Below, one piece after another: positions 27,581-37,730 of a DNA stretch of 64,000 nt. How positions within the stretch are numbered: the stretch's first letter is position 1; the number at the start of each line of letters is the position of its first letter. The translations under genes were made by a program, and so were the position numbers. The stretch is taken from NCBI RefSeq assembly GCF_019703855.1, contig NZ_AP024086.1, positions 1,012,501-1,076,500 on the forward strand, given 5' to 3'. The notes under the pieces were generated by a model. The model was not told the DNA's origin. It saw only the letters and a program-made list of their open reading frames with translations, and did no database searches. Source of the stretch: Desulfomarina profundi. GTDB taxonomy: Bacteria; Desulfobacterota; Desulfobulbia; Desulfobulbales; Desulfocapsaceae.

Positions 27581-28465
27581 TCAGATAAAATTCCTGACAC
27601 CTCCACTGCCAAGTTTTTTTACAATCAGAGTTGGACAGGTTGAAAGTGCTGTTACCCTTTCAACAATCGAACCGAAAAACATTCGTTCCAGAGCTGTTCG
27701 GCTGTATGAGCCGAGAATTGTCAACTGAATATCGTTTTTTTCAGCATAGGTGACAATGTTCTTATAGGGAGTTCCTTCCCTCAGTTCTGTTACGACATTG
27801 ACTTCCAGTTTACGCCCCTGCTCAGCGAGATTCTGAAGGGTTGTAAGAGCTTTCCTTCGGGCTTCCTTGAGAACTCCATATCGCAGACTCTTGTCCAGTG
27901 GGATATCTACGACAGTAAGCATATGGACGGTGCTCCCATAGCTCATTGCCAGGTCAAGTGCTCTTTGGGCTGCTTCCATGGAGTGCTTTGATCCGTTAAT
28001 GCAGACAAGGATCCTGGAGAAATCGATAATGGAGTCTTCGGGAATGATTAATACATCGCATGGGCTGAGGCTGATAATACCTGCGGTAGTCCTGCTGAGA
28101 AAAACGCGTTCCATATTGCTTCTCTTGGGACTGCCGATGATAATGAATTCCGCACCTGTCTTTTCCGCCCAGTTAACGATTTCATCTGCCGGGTCTCCAT
28201 GGCGAAGGACTGTTTTTATCGGCATGCTGCAGGAGGTCGCAAAGTCGGAGGCCTCCTGCAGACATTTTTGAAACGGTTGTCTGAGCTGGGTGTCAGTATT
28301 TTTCAGGGTCAGACGGTTGAGGTCTCCTTCATATCGGGGAGCAACCGAGAGTGCCGTCAGTTCAGCACCCATGGACGAAGTGAGTCGAAGGGCTTCTCTG
28401 ACACTGCTTTTGACCGGTGAAACCGGATCAATTGCTACCAGAACAGTACTGACGGAACCAGCCAT
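27581..28465 (-). CDS. tandem universal stress protein (two Usp domains)
   Basis: A 294-residue protein with two UspA domains in series. The first (residues 1-145) begins VLVAIDPVSPVKSSVREALR and ends FIIIGSPKRSNMERVFLSRT; the second begins ILVCINGSKHSMEAAQRALD and ends LTILGSYSRTALERMFFGS, both with the G-2x-G-like nucleotide-binding pattern partly kept. Usp proteins bind ATP or AMP and help survival in stress or starvation. It starts 2 bp after the stop of the TauE-like permease, so they are translated from one message, and it belongs to the minus-strand operon that starts near 30.5 kb. Confidence 0.88.
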   Translation of the reverse strand: MAGSVSTVLVAIDPVSPVKSSVREALRLTSSMGAELTALSVAPRYEGDLNRLTLKNTDTQLRQPFQKCLQEASDFATSCSMPIKTVLRHGDPADEIVNWAEKTGAEFIIIGSPKRSNMERVFLSRTTAGIISLSPCDVLIIPEDSIIDFSRILVCINGSKHSMEAAQRALDLAMSYGSTVHMLTVVDIPLDKSLRYGVLKEARRKALTTLQNLAEQGRKLEVNVVTELREGTPYKNIVTYAEKNDIQLTILGSYSRTALERMFFGSIVERVTALSTCPTLIVKKLGSGGVRNFI

Positions 28466-28467
28466 GA

Positions 28468-29534
28468 CTATGCCTCAGATGCAGCAGCTGCGTATGCCCT
28501 CTTTTCCTGGCTGCGAGCTTTGAAAAGATTGTAGAGAATGATAAATGCGCCGACCAGAAGAGCTATAACCATAATGCCGTAACTGATTTTTGACATGAGT
28601 GCAACATTGCTGTTGGCAATATGGGTAATGTCGAGTTGGTTCATATATTTCGGCATTGCCAGAAAACGACTGACTGCAACAATCAGCATGATTGTCGCCA
28701 TGACAAATTTAACCATGTAATCCTTGACATAGGTAGTTCCAATGGCACCGAGTTGTACACCGAAAAGGGATCCTGCAAGGATGAGAAGAGTCAGACGAAT
28801 ATCAACCATACCGTAATATGCCCACAGCAGTGTTCCACCAAGGCCCATGACGAAGGCGATGACAAGTTCAGTGGCTGAAGCGACAATACTTGTTACACCA
28901 ATGACATACATGAGTCCTGGAACGCCGATAAATCCGCCTACGGCAATGGTGGCAGCCAGCATACCTGTTGCAAGAGCGACAGGAGCCAGGAACCAGAAGC
29001 TGATGCGGAGATTGATGCGTTTGAAGGTGATCATCGGCCACAGTTCGATTTTCTGTAGTTTTTTGGCGAGTACTGGTTTGCTTGTGTCACCGCCTGATTT
29101 CATTATTTTGATGGCATCACGCATGACAAAGGAACCGACGACAACCAGAACTGCAACAAAGGCTACACTTACATAGAGATTGGAGCCGGCATCACCCCAG
29201 GTATCCCTGATGAATTTCTGGAAACGAATACCTACCTGGACACCAACTTCGGCGATTATGCCCATAATTACACCAAGTTTGATATCCACCTGACCGTAAC
29301 GGTATCGTTTGATGGAGCCAACCAGGGCTTTGGGGAATTTATGGCACATGTTGCTGGCTACGGCAACTGTACCGGGGACCCCAGACTCATCATTCCCGGG
29401 GTGAGAACGAACGCGCCACCTGAGCCTATAAAGCCACTGACGAGGCCACCGACAAAACCGACCAGGATAAGAAATATGGCTGAGTAGAGATTTAAATCGA
29501 TAAATTGAAGTGCTTCTGTCACTGGACCATGCAT
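28468..29534 (-). CDS. TauE/SafE-family membrane permease (one-base frameshift)
   Basis: A polytopic inner-membrane protein of the TauE/SafE family, members of which are linked to export or uptake of sulfite, sulfonates or related anions. With one base restored at the C run 29379-29382, the gene runs from the ATG at 29534 (GGAG seven bases upstream) and gives 355 residues. The first part reads LNLYSAIFLILVGFVGGLVSGFIGSGGAF, the typical first family repeat, and joins VPGTVAVASNMCHKFPKALVG. The second repeat is VALATGMLAATIAVGGFIGVPGLMYVIGV. In a sulfur-metabolising bacterium a sulfur oxyanion substrate is plausible, but this is inference. It is flanked by Usp genes in one operon. Confidence 0.82.
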
Positions 29535-29654
29535 GATTTTTCTCCAATACGTTAAAAATAAAATGAAAAAAATAAAAAATAAAAAAAATATTAATTAGCC
29601 CTCATTTGGCAACAGTACCTGTATGGTTGCCCTTGTGAATGCTTGAAATCATGT

Positions 29655-29694: not shown

Positions 29695-30015
29695 TTATGC
29701 ATTGACCTGTGCTCTGGGACGTTCATCTCTGCGCTTTTCTACAGTGTCAGCAGATTTTTCACGTTTTTCAGCAAGCTCGTCAGCTGCCTTCTGTGATCCT
29801 TCAATACCGAGCATGGACCAGAAAGCACTTGTGAAGCTTCCATGGAAATAGGAAAAGGCAAAAACAGTGGCTACCGGCAGTATGGCATACCAGCCACCCC
29901 TGGTGTAGTATTCCATGACAGTTTCACTGCTGGTAAAAACCGCCGCATAGAGAGCGGCGGAACCGAGCCCGAAAATCAGACATCTTTTGGCATAGCGTGT
30001 TTTTTTGGCGGACAT
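29695..30015 (-). CDS. small membrane protein with own ribosome site inside the Usp frame
   Basis: A 106-residue protein that begins MSAKKTRYAKRC at 30015, with a perfect AGGAGG nine bases upstream. Two membrane segments are visible (LIFGLGSAALYAAVFTS and GGWYAILPVATVFAFSYF). The tail is charged and ends RPRAQVNA, like the 94-residue protein at the other end of the operon. Its frame is open upstream into the Usp-like gene with no stop, so the message could make both a fusion and the free small protein. I recognise no family; a partner of the TauE-like permease is a guess from position. Confidence 0.6.
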   Translation of the reverse strand: MSAKKTRYAKRCLIFGLGSAALYAAVFTSSETVMEYYTRGGWYAILPVATVFAFSYFHGSFTSAFWSMLGIEGSQKAADELAEKREKSADTVEKRRDERPRAQVNA

Positions 30016-30525
30016 TGAAAAACCTCCTGTGTTTAAATTGTTGAAATGATGTTTCTTTTTGTATGTTGGATTTCCTTTCTTAGATTGGGTATAGATGACA
30101 CTGAAAACTGGAACCGGTGCTTTTCTGGTAACTTCAGAACGTCGGATACCTTTGTCAATTACAATGAAATCAATACGTTTTGCCGAATGACACAGTCGAT
30201 GAACAACCTTACCCACTTTCCCTGATTCTTCCGTGTAGCTGAAAAATACTGGTTTTTGCCGGGCCTTTTCCTTGAAGATGGTGGCACTCTCTCTAACAGC
30301 TCTGCTGAAGTGCCGGGCACGGACACCGCCGTCCGGAAGAAAGGGAAGGGTGTTGACGTATACAGCGTGTATTGCTCTGTTAAGACGCTCGGCAACACTG
30401 ATGGCGTAATCCATAACCGGTTCAGTGAGGTGTCCCTTGCTTGTCACCACGAGAATCCGTGGTATGTTTGCTGTTGGTGTCTCGGTGGTTTTACCGGTTT
30501 TTTCGTTCATGTCATGTTTGGTCAT
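29695..30525 (-). CDS. Usp-like protein read in frame into a small membrane protein
   Basis: As read, this is a 276-residue fusion. Residues 1-150 look like a single Usp domain (RILVVTSKGHLTEPVMDYAISVAERLNRAIHAVYV, later RIDFIVIDKGIRRSEV) and end near VPVFSVIYTQ. A linker (KKGNPTYKKKHHFNNLN) that looks like translated non-coding DNA leads into the small membrane protein that has its own ribosome site at 30015. Either the fusion is real or a stop or one base is missing near 30050-30080. The start ATG at 30525 has AGGA upstream. A sigma-54-like promoter lies about 55-70 bp before it. Confidence 0.65.
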   Translation of the reverse strand: MTKHDMNEKTGKTTETPTANIPRILVVTSKGHLTEPVMDYAISVAERLNRAIHAVYVNTLPFLPDGGVRARHFSRAVRESATIFKEKARQKPVFFSYTEESGKVGKVVHRLCHSAKRIDFIVIDKGIRRSEVTRKAPVPVFSVIYTQSKKGNPTYKKKHHFNNLNTGGFSMSAKKTRYAKRCLIFGLGSAALYAAVFTSSETVMEYYTRGGWYAILPVATVFAFSYFHGSFTSAFWSMLGIEGSQKAADELAEKREKSADTVEKRRDERPRAQVNA

Positions 30526-30665: not shown

Positions 30666-30733
30666 TGTTGCGTATTGCAACACCCCCGTATTTTTGATGG
30701 TGCAAAAAGCAACATCAGTTGCGTATTGCAACA
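30666..30733. promoter_or_regulatory. three TGTTGC-N5-GCAACA activator sites
   Basis: Site 1 (30666-30682) is a perfect 17-bp palindrome TGTTGC-GTATT-GCAACA. Site 2 (30698-30714) is TGGTGC-AAAAA-GCAACA and site 3 (30717-30733) is AGTTGC-GTATT-GCAACA, each with one mismatch. Centres are 32 and 19 bp apart, close to three and two helical turns. They lie between two sigma-54-like promoters that face away from each other, the usual position for an NtrC-type activator. An NtrC-family gene lies 2.4 kb away (33101-34470). Confidence 0.75.
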
Positions 30734-30898: not shown

Positions 30899-30914
30899 TG
30901 GCATTGAAAATGCT
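30899..30914 (+). promoter_or_regulatory. sigma-54-like promoter of the Lon-receiver gene
   Basis: TGGCATTGAAAATGCT has GG and GC exactly 10 bp apart, the invariant -24/-12 spacing. It lies about 140 bp before the ATG at 31051 and about 170-230 bp from the activator sites. The 525-bp gap 30526-31050 holds these sites and nothing else I can support. Confidence 0.6.
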
Positions 30915-31050: not shown

Positions 31051-33077
31051 ATGTTTTTTAAAAAAAAACATGAGCAGGATGATAGCCGGATTGAAGAAAA
31101 ACCACCGGAACAGACTCAACTGGAAAAAGTCAGGCAACAGATAAGAGAAGCGGAATTGCCCGTGAGGCAAGAGAGGCAGCGGAGAAGGAGGTTGAAAAAC
31201 TGGAAAAAACTGATGCTGCTGTAGCAGAGTATTCCATTGGCTGCAATTATATTGATTTTATTTTATCCCTGCCATGGAATGCGTCGTCCACCGGTAACTT
31301 CGATGTTTCCAGGGCAGAAACATTATTGAATACCCGCCACTGTGGTCTCGATGAAGTCAAGCAGCGGATTCTTGAATTTCTAGCAGCCAAAACCCTCCGG
31401 GGAACAGTACAGGCAAGAATTCTCATCGTTGATGATGAGGAGATTGCTCGAACCAATATGGAACATGTCCTGCTGAAAGATGGCTACAGCTGTTTTCCCG
31501 CTTCAAACGGTCTTGATGCTCTGGAAATACTTTCCAGTGGCGATATTGACCTGGTAATTACCGATCTGAAAATGGATCGTATGGACGGAATGGAACTCCT
31601 GGGACATATCAATCGGGTTTCTCCCGAAACTCCCGTAGTTATGGTTACCGGTTTTGCCACAGTCAATTCTGCAGTGGAAGCTTTGAAAAGGGGGGCTGCA
31701 CATTACCTTGGAAAGCCCCTTAATCTTGATGAACTTCGCAAAACCGTCAAGGAAGTACTGGAAAAGAGATTGATGACGGAAATGGGCAAGGGACCCATTC
31801 TCTGTTTTACCGGTCCTCCGGGAACTGGTAAAACTTCTGTTGGCAAGGCCATAGCAGAAGCCCTCAATCACCATTTCGTCCGTATGTCCCTGGCCGGGCT
31901 GCGGGATGAGGCGGAACTCCGGGGTCACCGGCGAACTTATGTGGGTGCCATGCCCGGGCGAATCATTACTGAACTGAAACGGGTCGGGGTTAATAATCCG
32001 GTTTTCATGCTTGATGAGATAGACAAGATCGGTCAGGATTTTCGGGGTGACCCCGCATCAGTTCTTCTCGAAGTGCTTGATCCTGAACAGAACGTAAAAT
32101 TTATGGACCACTATCTCGATCTGCCCTTTGATCTTTCAAAAATCATGTTTGTGGCAACAGCCAATGATCTATCGAGACTGCCGGGACCTCTTCTTGATCG
32201 CATGGAGATAGTAGAGTTTTCCGGATATACAGAGAGAGAAAAACGGGAAATAGCCAGGCAGTTCATGATTCCACGACAGCTTAAGGCAACCGGGCTGAAC
32301 AGGGCGGATATACAGTTTTCTGATGATGCCGTATCCAGAATTATTAATGATTACACAAGAGAGTCAGGACTGCGCGGCCTTGAGCGGGAAATTGCAAATA
32401 TCTGCAGAAAACTTGCTCTGGTTTATCTGAACAGTGATGGAAAGGATGAGCTCCTCAATATTGACGGAGAAGTTATCAGGGGATTTCTCGGTCCCCGGAA
32501 ATATCATCGTGAAGCGGCAGGGGTCTGCAACAGGCTTGGCATTACAACAGGCCTTGTCTGGACTGAGGTCGGGGGAGAAATAATAAGTGTTGAGTCGGCG
32601 TTAATGCCGGGAACCGGTCATCTTATTCTTACCGGTTCCCTTGGGGAAGTTCTGCGTGAATCGGCGCAGGCCGCCCTCAGCCTTATTCGCAGCCGGACAG
32701 GAGAATATGGTGTTCCTGATGATTTTTTCAAGGCCAGTGACCTGCATATTCACCTGCCTTCAGGGGCAGTCTCAAAAGATGGACCTTCTGCCGGGATTAC
32801 AATTTTTGCTGCATTGCTGTCTCTTCTCACAGGAAGGGTGGCAAGAGCCGATACGGCCATGACCGGAGAGATGACTCTCAGCGGCAGGATCTTGCCCATC
32901 AGCGGTATCCGTGAAAAGCTGTTGGCAGCACAGAGGGCCGGGATTTCAAGAGTTCTCCTGCCCGAAGCCAACAGGGATGAAGTGGAAATATTGTCAGATG
33001 ATGTGAAGGAAGGGCTTGAAATAATTCTTGTGCGGGTTGTGGATGAGATTATTGAGCATGTACTGGCAGAAAGTTGA
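31051..33077 (+). CDS. Lon-type ATP-dependent protease with a receiver domain inserted before Walker A (one-base frameshift)
   Basis: With one C restored in the run 31159-31161 the gene codes for 675 residues from the ATG at 31051 (GGGGGAGCAGG upstream). It lacks the Lon N-terminal substrate domain and starts with a charged coiled-coil-like stretch followed by the Lon segment (EYSIGCNYIDFILSLPWN, RHCGLDEVKQRILEFLA). A full receiver domain follows (ILIVDDEE at residue 124, aspartate near 172 in LVITDLKMDRMDGMELL, lysine in YLGKPLN), and only then Walker A (GPILCFTGPPGTGKTSVGKAI), the AAA+ module and the serine-lysine protease domain (SKDGPSAGITIF; GIREKLLAAQRAGI). Phosphorylation of the receiver could thus directly gate the ATPase. 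It is likely driven by the sigma-54 promoter upstream and sits beside a kinase/NtrC pair. Confidence 0.88.
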
Positions 33078-33100: not shown

Positions 33101-34470
33101 TCAGGCATCAGGGTTTTCAAGATCATACCGCTTGATTTTCCGCCAGAGGGAGACCCTGTCTATGCCGAGCAGTTTTGCGGCTTTGGACTTGTTTCCTTCA
33201 ACTTTGTCCAGAACTTCCCGGATATAGCTTTTTTCATGTTCCACAAGTGACGGCCAGGGGTCGCTGTTGGACCGGGTGGGGATGATCAAATCGTTTCGCA
33301 GATCGACGGGGAGATGGGGTGGCATGACAATCTCGTCATGGCACTCAATGAGGATCCTCTGGGCGATATTTTCAAGTTCTCGTATATTTCCAGGGTATTC
33401 ATACTGCTTGAGACGTTCGATTACTTCACCGGAAAGCTGGGGGATGTCTTTCCCGGCATGGGCATGTTTAACCATGAAATGATTTACCAGCAGAGGTATG
33501 TCATCTCTGCGCTGGGCAAGGGGGGGACACGAATTGTGATAACATCAAGACGGTAAAAGAGATCCATCCTGAAGGTGCCATTCTCCGCCTCCTGTTTCAG
33601 GTCTTTGTTGGTTGCTGCAAGAATCCTTATATCAATAGGAATTTCCCTGGATCCCCCAACCCGTCGCAGGGTTCTTTCCTGGAGAACCCGCAGCAGCTTG
33701 ACCTGCATGGAAAGAGAGAGTTCACCTATTTCATCAAAAAAGACTGTACCTCCTTCCGCCAGTTCCAAAAGCCCTTTCTTTTCCCTGTTTGCCCCTGTAA
33801 AGGCTTCTTTTTCGTGGCCGAACAGTTCATTCGTTATCAGTTCTTCGGTAAATGCACCGCAGTTGAAGGCAACAAAACGACCCTTTGCGCGTGGGCTCAA
33901 TTCGTGAATTGTTCTCGCCACCAGTTCTTTGCCTGTCCCGGTTTCTCCCAGAATCAAAACATTGCAGTCAAGTTGTGCCACCTGGGTTATTCTTTCACGC
34001 ATGGCCTGGACAGCAGGACTCTGGCCGATGATCCGGGACGCTCCCGCATTGTCCGATAGCTGCTTTTTCAGGGAACGGATCTCTTTCTGCATACCACTTT
34101 TTTCAAGTGCCTTTCCGACAAGAACTTTGAGCTCTGCCACATTGACAGGTTTAGGGAGGTAATGGTACGCACCCTGTCGAATTGCCTCAATGGCTGTCTC
34201 AACGCTGGAATATCCTGTGATGACCACCACTTCAGTTGCCGGCCACCTTTTTTTTGTTCCGTTAAGAACAGCGATACCGTCTTTTCCCTGCATCCGCAAA
34301 TCAGTAAGGACCAGGTCAACTTCTCTTTTCTCAAGAAGTGAAAGAGCAGTTTCTCCGCTGTCGGCAACTACAACATCATATCCTTCCTTTTCCATTATCA
34401 GGGCCAGATTCTCCCTGGCAATGGCTTCATCATCCACGACAAGGACGGTTTTTCTGTCTGAAGAGGTCAT
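33101..34470 (-). CDS. NtrC-family sigma-54 response regulator (one-base frameshift)
   Basis: With one base restored at the G run 33520-33526 (plus strand) the protein has 456 residues. The receiver domain ([14 protein letters not shown], aspartate in [13 protein letters not shown], lysine in YLPKPVN) is followed by the AAA+ sigma-54 interaction domain ([15 protein letters not shown]; the GAFTEEL motif, in which the usual GAFTGA is at [28 protein letters not shown]) and a Fis-type helix-turn-helix ([23 protein letters not shown]). The break is in the [15 protein letters not shown] segment. The gene follows its kinase by 11 bp. The palindromic sites at 30.7 kb are reasonable targets, but this is inference. 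It converges with the Lon gene. Confidence 0.9.
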
Positions 34471-34481
34471 TGTAGTTGTTT

Positions 34482-35987
34482 CTAGCCCAGGGGGAGTTTG
34501 ATATGGAACGAAGCACCCTCCCCGGGAGTGCTTTCAACGGATATTTCTCCATGGTGCCGCTGGATTATACCGTAAACGACGGAGAGGCCAAGACCAGTCC
34601 CCTTGCCCTCTTCTTTCGTGGTGTAAAACGGGTCGAACAGTTGTCCGCGTATCTCTGTCGGAATACCCTGACCAGTATCGGTAATTTCTATCAGCACACT
34701 GTTTTCCTGTTCATCGACTCTGGCGGAAATAGTAATTGTTCCCTGGTGCTCAATTGACTGGGAAGCGTTGATGAGAAGATTGAGGAACACTTCCTGCATC
34801 CTCTGTATATCCACAGGCAGGACCAGGTCTTTCGGAACATTGACTGTAATGATAATATCTGCCGGAATCTGACTTTTTACCAGTTCTACGGCTCGATTGA
34901 CAATATTGACGAGTGTTGAAGGGCGGAGGGTGAATTCCTGCAATCTGGAAAATTCGAGTAATCCCTTAACGATATCCCTTGCCCTGTGGGTTTCCTGTTC
35001 AATGTTTTTCAGCATTCTGCGGATCAGTTCCTGATCATTGGATTCCAGATCATCGATTGCGATCTGGCAGGAGGTGGAAATATTATTCAGGGGATTGTTG
35101 AGTTGGTGGGCCACACCGGCAGTCAGTGTGCCGATTGAAGAGAGTTTTTTAGACTGGACCAGCTGGTCCTGCCTGTGCTCAAGCTCCTGAACCATGGTAT
35201 TGAATGCTTCCATGACCTGTTGCATTTCATCCCTGGTGGCGGGAATTTCCAGTTTTTTGAAACGTCCCAGGGCGATATCTTTTGTGGCTTTTTTGATGAC
35301 GGTCAACGGGTCGAAAATCCGTGAAAAAATGAGAAAAGGGATGAGAATACTCAGCAGAATGGCAATAGTCGCCCAGATGACCAGTTGCTGTTTGAGTTCT
35401 TTGAGTATTGAATAAATCTGAGTATGTTCGAATTTAACCAGATGTTCACTCAATTCAACCATCTGCTGACCCTGCAGTCTTATTTTTTCAATTATATCCT
35501 TGTGCAGATCGGGGCTTGTGGGATCTGCCCTGGTGAACTGCCTGAAACTTCTGCGGTAAGTTTCAATATGACTGCTGAGTTCCTCCAGCATGGGAGCAAC
35601 TTTCAGTTTTTCCACCTTATCGGACATATCCCTCTGGGTCTTCAGGGCCAGGTCAATAAATTTTGCATTTTCATGCAGTGCCTGGGGCGTATTGTATAGC
35701 AGGTAATTTTTTTCATACCGGCGAACTTCCAGGATTATATTATTGAGCTTGTAGGCCAGGCCCATGATTTGCAGTTTTTCCTCTGCTGTGCGCAGGTCTT
35801 CATAGGAAATGTATCCGATTATCAGAATCCCAATCACATAACATATATGGATGAACTTGAATCTGCCGATGAGGCTGAGGCGCAATGGTCTGAACACAAA
35901 AATACTCCACAGCTTGGCACTGAAGGCTGACGGTGAAAAGCAACAGGGCTCAAGAATTTGTTTATCCCGAATTTCCCATGAAAGCAT
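34482..35987 (-). CDS. membrane sensor histidine kinase of the NtrC-type pair
   Basis: An approximately 500-residue kinase. A membrane segment ([18 protein letters not shown]) is followed by a periplasmic helical region of about 150 residues, a second membrane segment ([20 protein letters not shown]), a HAMP domain, a HisKA domain with the histidine in [16 protein letters not shown], and a HATPase domain ([31 protein letters not shown]). I prefer the ATG at 35987, which has AAAAGG upstream; the frame is open to a TTG at 36020. It is upstream of and co-transcribed with the NtrC-family regulator. The periplasmic helical bundle suggests sensing of a small molecule or envelope state; the signal is unknown. 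Confidence 0.88.
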
Positions 35988-36108
35988 GGCTGAGCCTTTT
36001 AGTCGAGCTCTGCCGGTCAAGGGAAAAATATTATTTTACTCTTTTGTGTTTACCAAAATATAAAGGAAAAGTAAATAGTTGGGAATTGCAGTTGAATCGT
36101 CATTCATT

Positions 36109-37730
36109 TCATTGCTGAAAATCATATAGAGACGCCTGGAAAAGTGTTTTTGTATAATTCTGTGCGGGTGAGGAAAACAGTTCACGGGATGGTCCGCTTT
36201 CAACGATTTTTCCGTTCTGCATGACAACTATATAGTCCGCCATGGCCCTTATAACCCGAAGGTCATGGGATATGAAAATATAGGTCAGGTTATGCTTTTC
36301 CTGCAGTGTGAGGAGGAGATCAATGACCTGGGCCTGAATGGTAACATCAAGCGCTGAAGTCGGTTCATCCAGAATCAGCAGTTGTGGTTTCAGGATGATT
36401 GACCGGGCAATTGCAATCCGTTGGCGTTGTCCTCCGGAAAATTCATGGGGATAACGATAGATCATGTCCGCCGTCAATCCAACTTCTTCCAGCGTTGCAA
36501 GGATCCTGGTTCTTCTATTGGCTCGATCAAATTCCGGGAAATGGATTTTCAGTCCTTCTCCAATGATCTCTTCAACGGTGAGCCTGGGTGAGAGAGAAGA
36601 AAAAGGATCCTGGAAAACGATCTGCATGTGTCGACGAAGGCTTCGTATCTGTCCACTATTTAACTGTGCCAGGTCTTTTCCGTTGTAGACTATTTTGCCT
36701 TGACTGGGGTCAGTTTTAAAATGGCAAAGGCGAGCGTCGTTTTCCCGGACCCGGATTCACCGACTATACCGCATGTGGTTCCCCTGTGAAGTCGGATAGT
36801 TGCCTTGTTCACCGCGGTGATCCGGGTTTTTTCACGTCTGAGGAACTGGCCCCAGCTGCGGGCAGTGGCAAAGAAACAGCTCAGGTTTTCAGTTTCAAGG
36901 AGAAGTGGAGATTTTGAGATCTCCTTCTGTTTATGTTCCCTGGTTGTAAGGGAAAGGAGTTGGCCTGCGTAACTGTTCGAATGAGAAGAAAAAAGCTGCT
37001 CTGTCCTTCCCTGTTCGACAATGAAACCATTTTTCATAAGGACAAGCTGGTCGGCATTTTTTTTAACCAGACCAAGGTCGTGGGATATCAGGAGGAGGCC
37101 CATATTAAATTCCATCTGGATATCATGAATAAGCTGCAGAATCTGGGCCTGGATTGTTACATCAAGCGCAGTGGTCGGTTCATCGGCGATCAGCAGTGCC
37201 GGTCTGCAGGCAAGAGCCATGGCTATCATGACACGTTGCCTCTGGCCACCGGACAGCTGATGGGGATAGGCTGTCATGCATCGTTCCGGATCAATGATAC
37301 CACACCGGTCAAGTAATCGTATGGCTTCTTTTTCCGCTTCTTTTTTTACCATCCTGCGGTGGATGAGAAGAGGCTCTTTAATCTGGTTGCCCACGGAGAA
37401 AACAGGGTTTAGAGAACTCATTGGTTCCTGGAAAATGATGGCAATCCGGTTTCCTCTGATTATGCGCATTTCCTCAAAAGGAAGTTTTTGCAGATCCCTG
37501 TTTTCAAAAATAATGGAACCGGTAGTGCTTATTGTACTGTTTTCCTCAAGAAGGCGCAGGACGGAATAAGCTGTGACGGATTTTCCGGAGCCCGATTCAC
37601 CGACCAGGGCTGTTGTTTTACCCTTGGGGATGGTGAAGGAGATATTATGGAGGACCTGGGTTTGAACAGGGTTATTCTGTTCGTTACGTCCATGGAACCA
37701 GAGGTTGAAGTTGTCGACCGTCAGCAGCAT
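36109..37730 (-). CDS. yejF: double-domain oligopeptide ABC transporter ATPase, YejF-like (one-base frameshift)
   Basis: With one base restored at the G run 36706-36709 (plus strand) the gene codes for 540 residues with two ABC ATPase domains, as in YejF-type peptide transporters. Domain 1 has Walker [14 protein letters not shown], the OppD-like [14 protein letters not shown], signature [15 protein letters not shown] and Walker [15 protein letters not shown]. Domain 2 has [43 protein letters not shown] and [14 protein letters not shown]. The break joins ILKLTP to [12 protein letters not shown]. The permease and binding-protein genes are not in the window, so the partners may lie elsewhere. 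It follows acyP by 12 bp. Confidence 0.88.

Follow-up and report, generated by a model that had tools for sequence, protein, structure and literature searches.

Desulfomarina profundi encodes a Lon-type protease, here called REC-Lon, in which a response-regulator receiver of about 123 residues has been added between the Box II helix and Walker A without loss of Lon residues, a design common to many sulfate-reducing bacteria. The gene lies in a stretch of 64,000 nucleotides (contig NZ_AP024086.1, positions 1,012,501 to 1,076,500 of the forward strand; hereafter the window), and its features and those of its neighbors are collected in Table 1.

The 583-aa open reading frame at 31326-33077 matches Response_reg at residues 32-141, AAA at 159-299, Lon_lid at 320-371 and Lon_C at 379-581 in Pfam, and begins with the end of the Lon helical region, ahead of the receiver, which is preceded by CGLDEVKQRILEFLA and followed by GPPGTGKT. 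When the B. subtilis Lon fragment 3m6a was aligned to a profile built from 21 relatives, profile columns 19-119 corresponded to 3m6a residues 5-105 and columns 243-673 to residues 103-531 (PDB alignment); the two Lon blocks meet at chain-sequence residues of about 103-105, and the receiver occupies profile columns of about 120-242. REC-Lon thus has the helical bundle, AAA+ domain, lid and Ser-Lys protease of LonA and differs from it in the receiver inserted at that point and in the absence of the N-domain. A first-pass annotation had already placed the receiver between the Lon helix and Walker A, which Pfam and the 3m6a alignment bear out, and had described the substrate-binding N-domain as missing. 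The latter agrees with a Pfam search of one full-length ortholog (L009, 680 aa), in which no LON N-domain was found at E ≤ 1e-3, and with the short whole open frames of the 25 orthologs in alignment A1 (671–827 codons including the receiver), which leave little space before the helical bundle.

On L009 and the A1 frame lengths, REC-Lon therefore lacks the N-terminal LON substrate-binding domain of a canonical full-length LonA. It has the Lon AAA+ protease core (peptidase family S16), with Walker A and B and the Ser-Lys dyad present wherever readable across 64 loci, and both the window ORF (649.9 bits) and L009 (699.2 bits) exceed the TIGR00763 cut-off of 608.05. The receiver carries the residue set of two-component response regulators, namely the acidic pair, phospho-acceptor Asp, Thr/Ser and Lys (n = 64).

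Table 1. Features of the REC-Lon gene and its surroundings, in window coordinates
Feature	Position	Strand	Basis
Universal stress protein, divergent operon	27581..28465	-	Pfam
TauE/SafE-type anion exporter, frame broken near 29373	28468..29547	-	Pfam, codon usage
Conserved protein, first gene of divergent operon	29695..30525	-	no hit in Pfam or NCBIfam (E ≤ 1e-3)
Palindrome TGTTGC-N5-GCAACA, exact copy; proposed site of NtrC-type regulator	30666..30682	.	pattern search
Palindrome copy, 1 mismatch	30698..30714	.	pattern search
Palindrome copy, 1 mismatch	30717..30733	.	pattern search
N-terminal piece of REC-Lon gene (MFFKKK...), before frame break	31051..31150	+	similar starts in 25 A1 orthologs
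Helical region and Box II-type helix of Lon (LPWN... CGLDEVKQRILEFLA), Lon frame	31131..31409	+	alignment A1, 3m6a alignment
Receiver between Box II helix and Walker A strand	31410..31778	+	Response_reg 31419-31748 (Pfam); edges from 3m6a alignment
Predicted phospho-acceptor Asp codon (D80 of 583-aa ORF)	31563..31565	+	26/26 A1 rows, 64/64 loci
AAA+ domain; Walker A GPPGTGKT at 31812-31835	31800..32222	+	Pfam, alignment A1
Lon lid domain	32283..32438	+	Pfam
Lon protease domain; Ser codon 32787-32789, Lys codon 32916-32918	32460..33068	+	Pfam, alignment, residue census
C-terminal part (AAA lid, Fis-type HTH) of the NtrC-type regulator, other frame	33101..33475	-	Pfam
NtrC-type regulator, receiver and sigma54 domain; frame broken before lid/HTH part	33484..34470	-	Pfam, codon usage
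Sensor histidine kinase (HAMP, HisKA, HATPase), candidate phosphodonor	34482..36020	-	Pfam

The gene at 31051-33077 is not one frame. The frame of its ATG at 31051 (MFFKKKHEQDD...) departs from the Lon reading at about 31131-31150; an open Lon frame extends from 31095, and the codon-usage path switches at 31131. This break occurs in 0 of 25 A1 orthologs, whose start Met (M.FF) was chosen by motif among in-frame Mets. Because other genes are broken too, we consider assembly indels likelier than gene death: a second Lon gene of the same genome is split (G000:C1:1863022-1864346), and 4 of its 36 sigma54-activator genes (E ≤ 1e-50) have frames of <380 codons, with one more split inside the domain, compared with 3/108 when that cut-off is applied to three further single-contig genomes; some of the short frames may be natural. 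A real frameshift would leave the gene dead in this one genome, with REC-Lon, the regulator and the exporter decaying together. That scenario is compatible with any reading of REC-Lon function, and it draws on the breaks in three genes of the module (also near 29373 in the exporter and at 33476-33530 in the regulator) and on the intact A1 orthologs. We regard it as unlikely, given the breaks elsewhere in the genome and the retention of the catalytic residues downstream of the REC-Lon break.

The assembly as a whole seems rich in small indels, to judge from the broken exporter, regulator and second Lon gene. At 36109-36627 of the window, an ABC ATPase frame starts with MQIVFQDP, which looks as though the N-terminal half were encoded in a different frame.

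Structure prediction, suggested in the first-pass annotation as a check, placed an intact receiver within an intact LonA core. The AlphaFold2 model of L009 from 74 aligned sequences (pLDDT 89.7, pTM 0.84) replaced an earlier 21-row run (pLDDT 72.2). Its Lon core matches 6v11 with Z 31.6 and 3m6a with Z 30.3 (rmsd 2.0 over 493 residues), and its residues 120-241 match the solved receiver 8fk2 with Z 23.8 (rmsd 0.8 over 121 residues). In the model, helix 100-118 leads into the receiver, and four residues separate the last receiver helix (225-244) from the Walker A strand (249-253). In AAA+ proteins this strand and the Box II helix hold the nucleotide, and Box II touches adenine. From this monomer model, we expect that a shift of helix 225-244 would act beside the nucleotide.

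This arrangement resembles NtrC and NtrC1, in which alpha5 likewise connects a receiver with an AAA+ module (NtrC1, 1ny5, is matched by profile columns 123-244). In REC-Lon, however, the Lon protease core takes the place of the sigma54-activating AAA+ and DNA-binding domains, and the receiver follows the Box II helix, whereas that of NtrC is N-terminal. RssB and CpdR are receiver adaptors that act in trans for ClpXP, and phosphorylation of their receivers governs proteolysis; they are separate proteins, whereas the receiver of REC-Lon is built into the protease. The built-in receiver might replace the lost N-domain as a dock for a substrate or partner, capturing substrate when phosphorylated as an adaptor in cis, with the ATPase not switched. 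Both the absence of the N-domain and the conservation of working-receiver residues fit such a role. Insertion between the Box II helix and the Walker A strand, and not at a free N-terminus, favors mechanical coupling by an argument of geometry only, and we consider docking rather unlikely.

Searching with a profile of the N-terminal half (A2), we found REC-Lon in 51 of 395 genomes sampled from the host's phylum, this genome included (one match per genome, E ≤ 1e-60); 48 of the matches have E 2.9e-122 or better and 3 are partial. Among 38 relative genomes, again including this one, 18 have a full-length match. A single match crosses both junctions in 17 of the 37 others, one of which (G010) has a TGA reported in the matched range and an ORF that still yields a 675-residue protein; another relative, G005, has a contig-cut piece (L072). 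The same insertion in 17/37 relatives and 51/395 genomes of the phylum rules out an assembly chimera, so the finding survives the possibility, raised at the outset, that the insertion was an assembly join. A scan of genome contigs with peptides of the window protein, which reaches close kin only, gave 30 loci, namely 11 REC-Lons (10 with Desulfo- type names and one “Deltaproteobacteria bacterium”), 13 with the Lon part only and 6 with the receiver only. A protein search of plasmids gave 62 records (E ≤ 1e-60), and the 15 matches listed show no sign of plasmid spread: none of them covers the query before residue 92, and those with an annotated feature are lon or lon2.

Residue conservation was assessed across 64 distinct loci (among 99), including the window. 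The phospho-acceptor Asp, the receiver Lys, and the Walker A Lys and Thr are present in all 64. Walker B Asp-Glu is kept in 63/63 readable loci (unreadable in L031), the protease Ser in 60/60 (unreadable in L017, L030 and L031; L032 is masked, its aligned letter being an L within a stretch shown as X in A1) and the protease Lys in 62/62 (unreadable in L017 and L031). The first acidic position is D in 63 loci and E in one (L030), the second D in 63 and E in one (L123), and the Thr/Ser position is Thr in 61 and Ser in 3. A separate 53-row alignment, made without L012, L128 and L032 (masked residues), agrees with this census, and together they rule out a loss of receiver residues in the family. 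The claim that the receiver residues and the Ser-Lys dyad are kept in the window protein therefore extends to the family, and with it the finding passes a test that absence of the phospho-acceptor elsewhere would have failed. Receiver folds that serve as structural or oligomerization elements and no longer take phosphate do exist, one example being the protease YabG, with a CheY-like domain that lacks a conserved phospho-acceptor Asp according to excerpts of PMC10681294; with Asp and Lys kept in 64/64 loci, such a role for the REC-Lon receiver is highly improbable.

A tree built from the ATPase-protease core unites 47 REC-Lons on a single branch (100/99) that excludes 32 ordinary Lon rows (L030, being too short, and L015 and L032 did not enter the tree, and L062 and L071 represent one gene). 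The REC-Lon branch also takes in L072, a fragment cut by a contig end that lacks the receiver region and had been filed as plain Lon. This single branch suggests that the receiver was probably inserted into Lon once. L068, L069, L070, L071 and L073, considered as Lons with other inserts, looked by eye like ordinary Lon with an N-domain. Two kinds of variation were noted within the family. The Desulfovibrio REC-Lons L014, L015 and L032 have tracts rich in Gly, Gln and Pro, both close to the N-terminus and within the protease half. The divergent L123 (G053), with its E at the second acidic position and a Thr-to-Ser change, is without a cognate regulator nearby, and either decay or rewiring is possible there.

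In 41 of 50 loci, window included, REC-Lon has a kinase and a related NtrC-type regulator no more than 8 kb away, and this association lends support to the adjacent kinase as the candidate phosphodonor proposed in the first-pass annotation. Eight of the remaining nine loci have no such pair at that distance, and the ninth, L123, has a regulator that was judged by eye to belong to a different kind (counting it gives 42/50). A TauE/SafE exporter, present in the window, lies within 8 kb in 30 of the 49 other loci, and a DASS-type anion transporter in 11 (the six examined in Pfam match CitMHS and TrkA_C). Both kinds occur together in 0/49 and neither in 8/49, with a DASS-like ORF further off in L132; TauE/SafE and DASS/CitMHS transporters thus seem to replace each other beside REC-Lon. 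Some loci stop at a contig end, and the counts for no neighbor and for neither transporter are upper bounds. The conserved protein at the head of the divergent operon has, by eye, a stress-protein-like start and a membrane-like end, and is related to neighbors of many REC-Lon genes.

The receiver of the neighboring regulator is the best receiver match to that of REC-Lon in the genome (E 2.2e-27; next 2.9e-22). In a receiver tree, 50 Lon and 41 neighboring NtrC receivers group together, apart from 23 others, although the tree has few columns and its key branch (90/89) is under the starred level; within the group, the Lon and NtrC receivers are not cleanly separated into two clades (3 changes each). 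The 23 others comprise 20 high-scoring receivers from this genome (of 118 matches, Lon matches included) and three (L109_N12518, L128_N747 and L123_N3220) that were reassigned by eye from neighbor to other; L109 and L128 keep another neighbor, L123 none.

Kinase specificity of receivers is seated in alpha1, where Lon receivers share on average 57% identity with the partner of their own locus, 52% between loci and 26% with the 23 others. Over the full receiver, the neighbor reaches 42%, as does one unrelated receiver of the genome. Permuting partners lowered mean alpha1 identity from 0.574 to 0.532, and 0 of 5000 permutations were as high, with phylogeny not removed; own-partner pairing is thus slightly above permuted pairing, and the true partner has a median rank of 12 of 41. 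At the level of sequence, these data support a common origin of the Lon and NtrC receivers and a shared kinase.

All three palindromes at 30666-30733 lie in the gap between the divergent genes. In the 4.3-Mb genome the copy at 30666-30682 is the sole exact one, and with ≤ 1 mismatch 3 of 16 sites fall in this gap (backward control pattern, 5 sites). Across 50 loci, the regions upstream of the Lon gene hold 70 sites with ≤ 2 mismatches, where the remainder of these loci predicts 6.35, and 33 with ≤ 1 mismatch, against 0.85 expected; a palindrome is present in 38/50 of these regions and in 123/1122 control segments of 720 bases. The six sites of the whole window are not unusual in number (6 of 100 shuffles reach that count), and it is their clustering, not the window-wide count, that constitutes the signal. 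No copy was found before the kinase gene among the window sites. The palindrome is a putative binding site of the NtrC-type regulator and presumably corresponds to the published site of DVU3305. The sigma54 promoter pattern found no support in the window (74 matches vs 86 expected), and its strict form occurs upstream of Lon in just 2/50 loci; the match at 30899-30914 was therefore not counted as a feature.

Neither the architecture nor the idea of a phospho-switch is new: both were published in 2011 for DVU3303 of Desulfovibrio vulgaris, and DVU3303-DVU3305 were described as a “three-component system” (Rajeev 2011, PMC3333781, in excerpts). According to the same excerpts, DVU3305 regulates its own operon and DVU3302-3298, and its binding site is conserved in genomes with a lon-RR gene (PMC3333781); a DVU3305 target list appears in PMC4641369. 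As in that system, the window encodes a Lon-type protein with an internal receiver, next to a histidine kinase and an NtrC-type, sigma54-dependent regulator, together with a gene set matching the UspA-type and membrane protein targets. The three D. vulgaris genes apparently form one operon, whereas the kinase/regulator pair of the window is convergent with the Lon gene, and the window REC-Lon has a frame break. DVU3303 was compared by description, with L014 (Desulfovibrio sp. A2), L015 and L032 as sequence stand-ins. The Lon tree with the 47-REC-Lon branch (100/99) included L014 in place of DVU3303; the gene order of L014, Lon-kinase-regulator with the stress protein, exporter and conserved protein divergent, agrees with the published layout of DVU3303-3305 and DVU3302-3298. 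What our analysis adds is the distribution of the family, the seamless insertion, the kinship between the receivers of Lon and NtrC type, and a palindrome conserved ahead of the Lon gene. The NtrC-type regulator with its closely related receiver, and the palindrome, also go beyond the first-pass annotation.

Fitness data from 2023 give every pairwise cofitness among DVU3303-3305 as above 0.9, and report the three genes as detrimental in chlorate and the target transporter DVU3299 as important there (excerpts of PMC10102598). Since the genes appear to form one operon, this cofitness may partly reflect polar effects. The data bear on whether REC-Lon feeds back on the signaling pair, degrading the regulator or kinase, or draining phosphate through its receiver, and so shutting the response off. 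The relatedness of the Lon and NtrC receivers would suit such a role; a shut-off factor, however, should have a fitness effect of opposite sign, while DVU3303-3305 behave alike, and feedback is accordingly quite improbable, even though polarity could blur the comparison. No phosphotransfer, ATPase or protease assay of DVU3303 or its neighbors was found in excerpts of the open-licence papers that name these genes.

Family-wide conservation, seamless insertion, receiver kinship and the palindrome, all seen in the sequences, make a branched phospho-relay the most likely mechanism, and we hold it with moderate confidence: one kinase would feed two sister receivers, one for transcription and one for proteolysis. 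The neighboring sensor kinase would phosphorylate both the receiver of REC-Lon and that of the adjacent NtrC-type regulator. The regulator would bind the palindromes and turn on the REC-Lon gene together with the divergent stress-protein/anion-exporter operon. In REC-Lon, phosphorylation would move the alpha4-beta5-alpha5 face of the receiver. Since alpha5 runs on towards the Walker A strand, such a shift would alter ring assembly or ATP turnover, and with them proteolysis. A single signal would thus set synthesis and protein turnover in one small module. For this relay we infer the shared kinase, the binding of the regulator in this genome, the direction of the switch and the substrate.

A fuller account, which we offer tentatively, is that the sister receivers arose by duplication and are driven by one kinase, one residing in the NtrC-type regulator and the other in the nucleotide-binding fold of Lon, where phosphate would directly gate the AAA+ ring, so that a single signal would control both synthesis and degradation in a module centered on an anion transporter. 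Because a transposon library of D. vulgaris exists (PMC10102598, in excerpts), the 2011 hypothesis is directly testable.

Accessible portions of the open-licence literature yielded no example of a Lon protease controlled directly by phosphorylation of a receiver built into it. If REC-Lon works in this way, protein degradation would be an output of two-component signaling that needs no adaptor, and the insertion site would represent a natural design for a switchable AAA+ machine.
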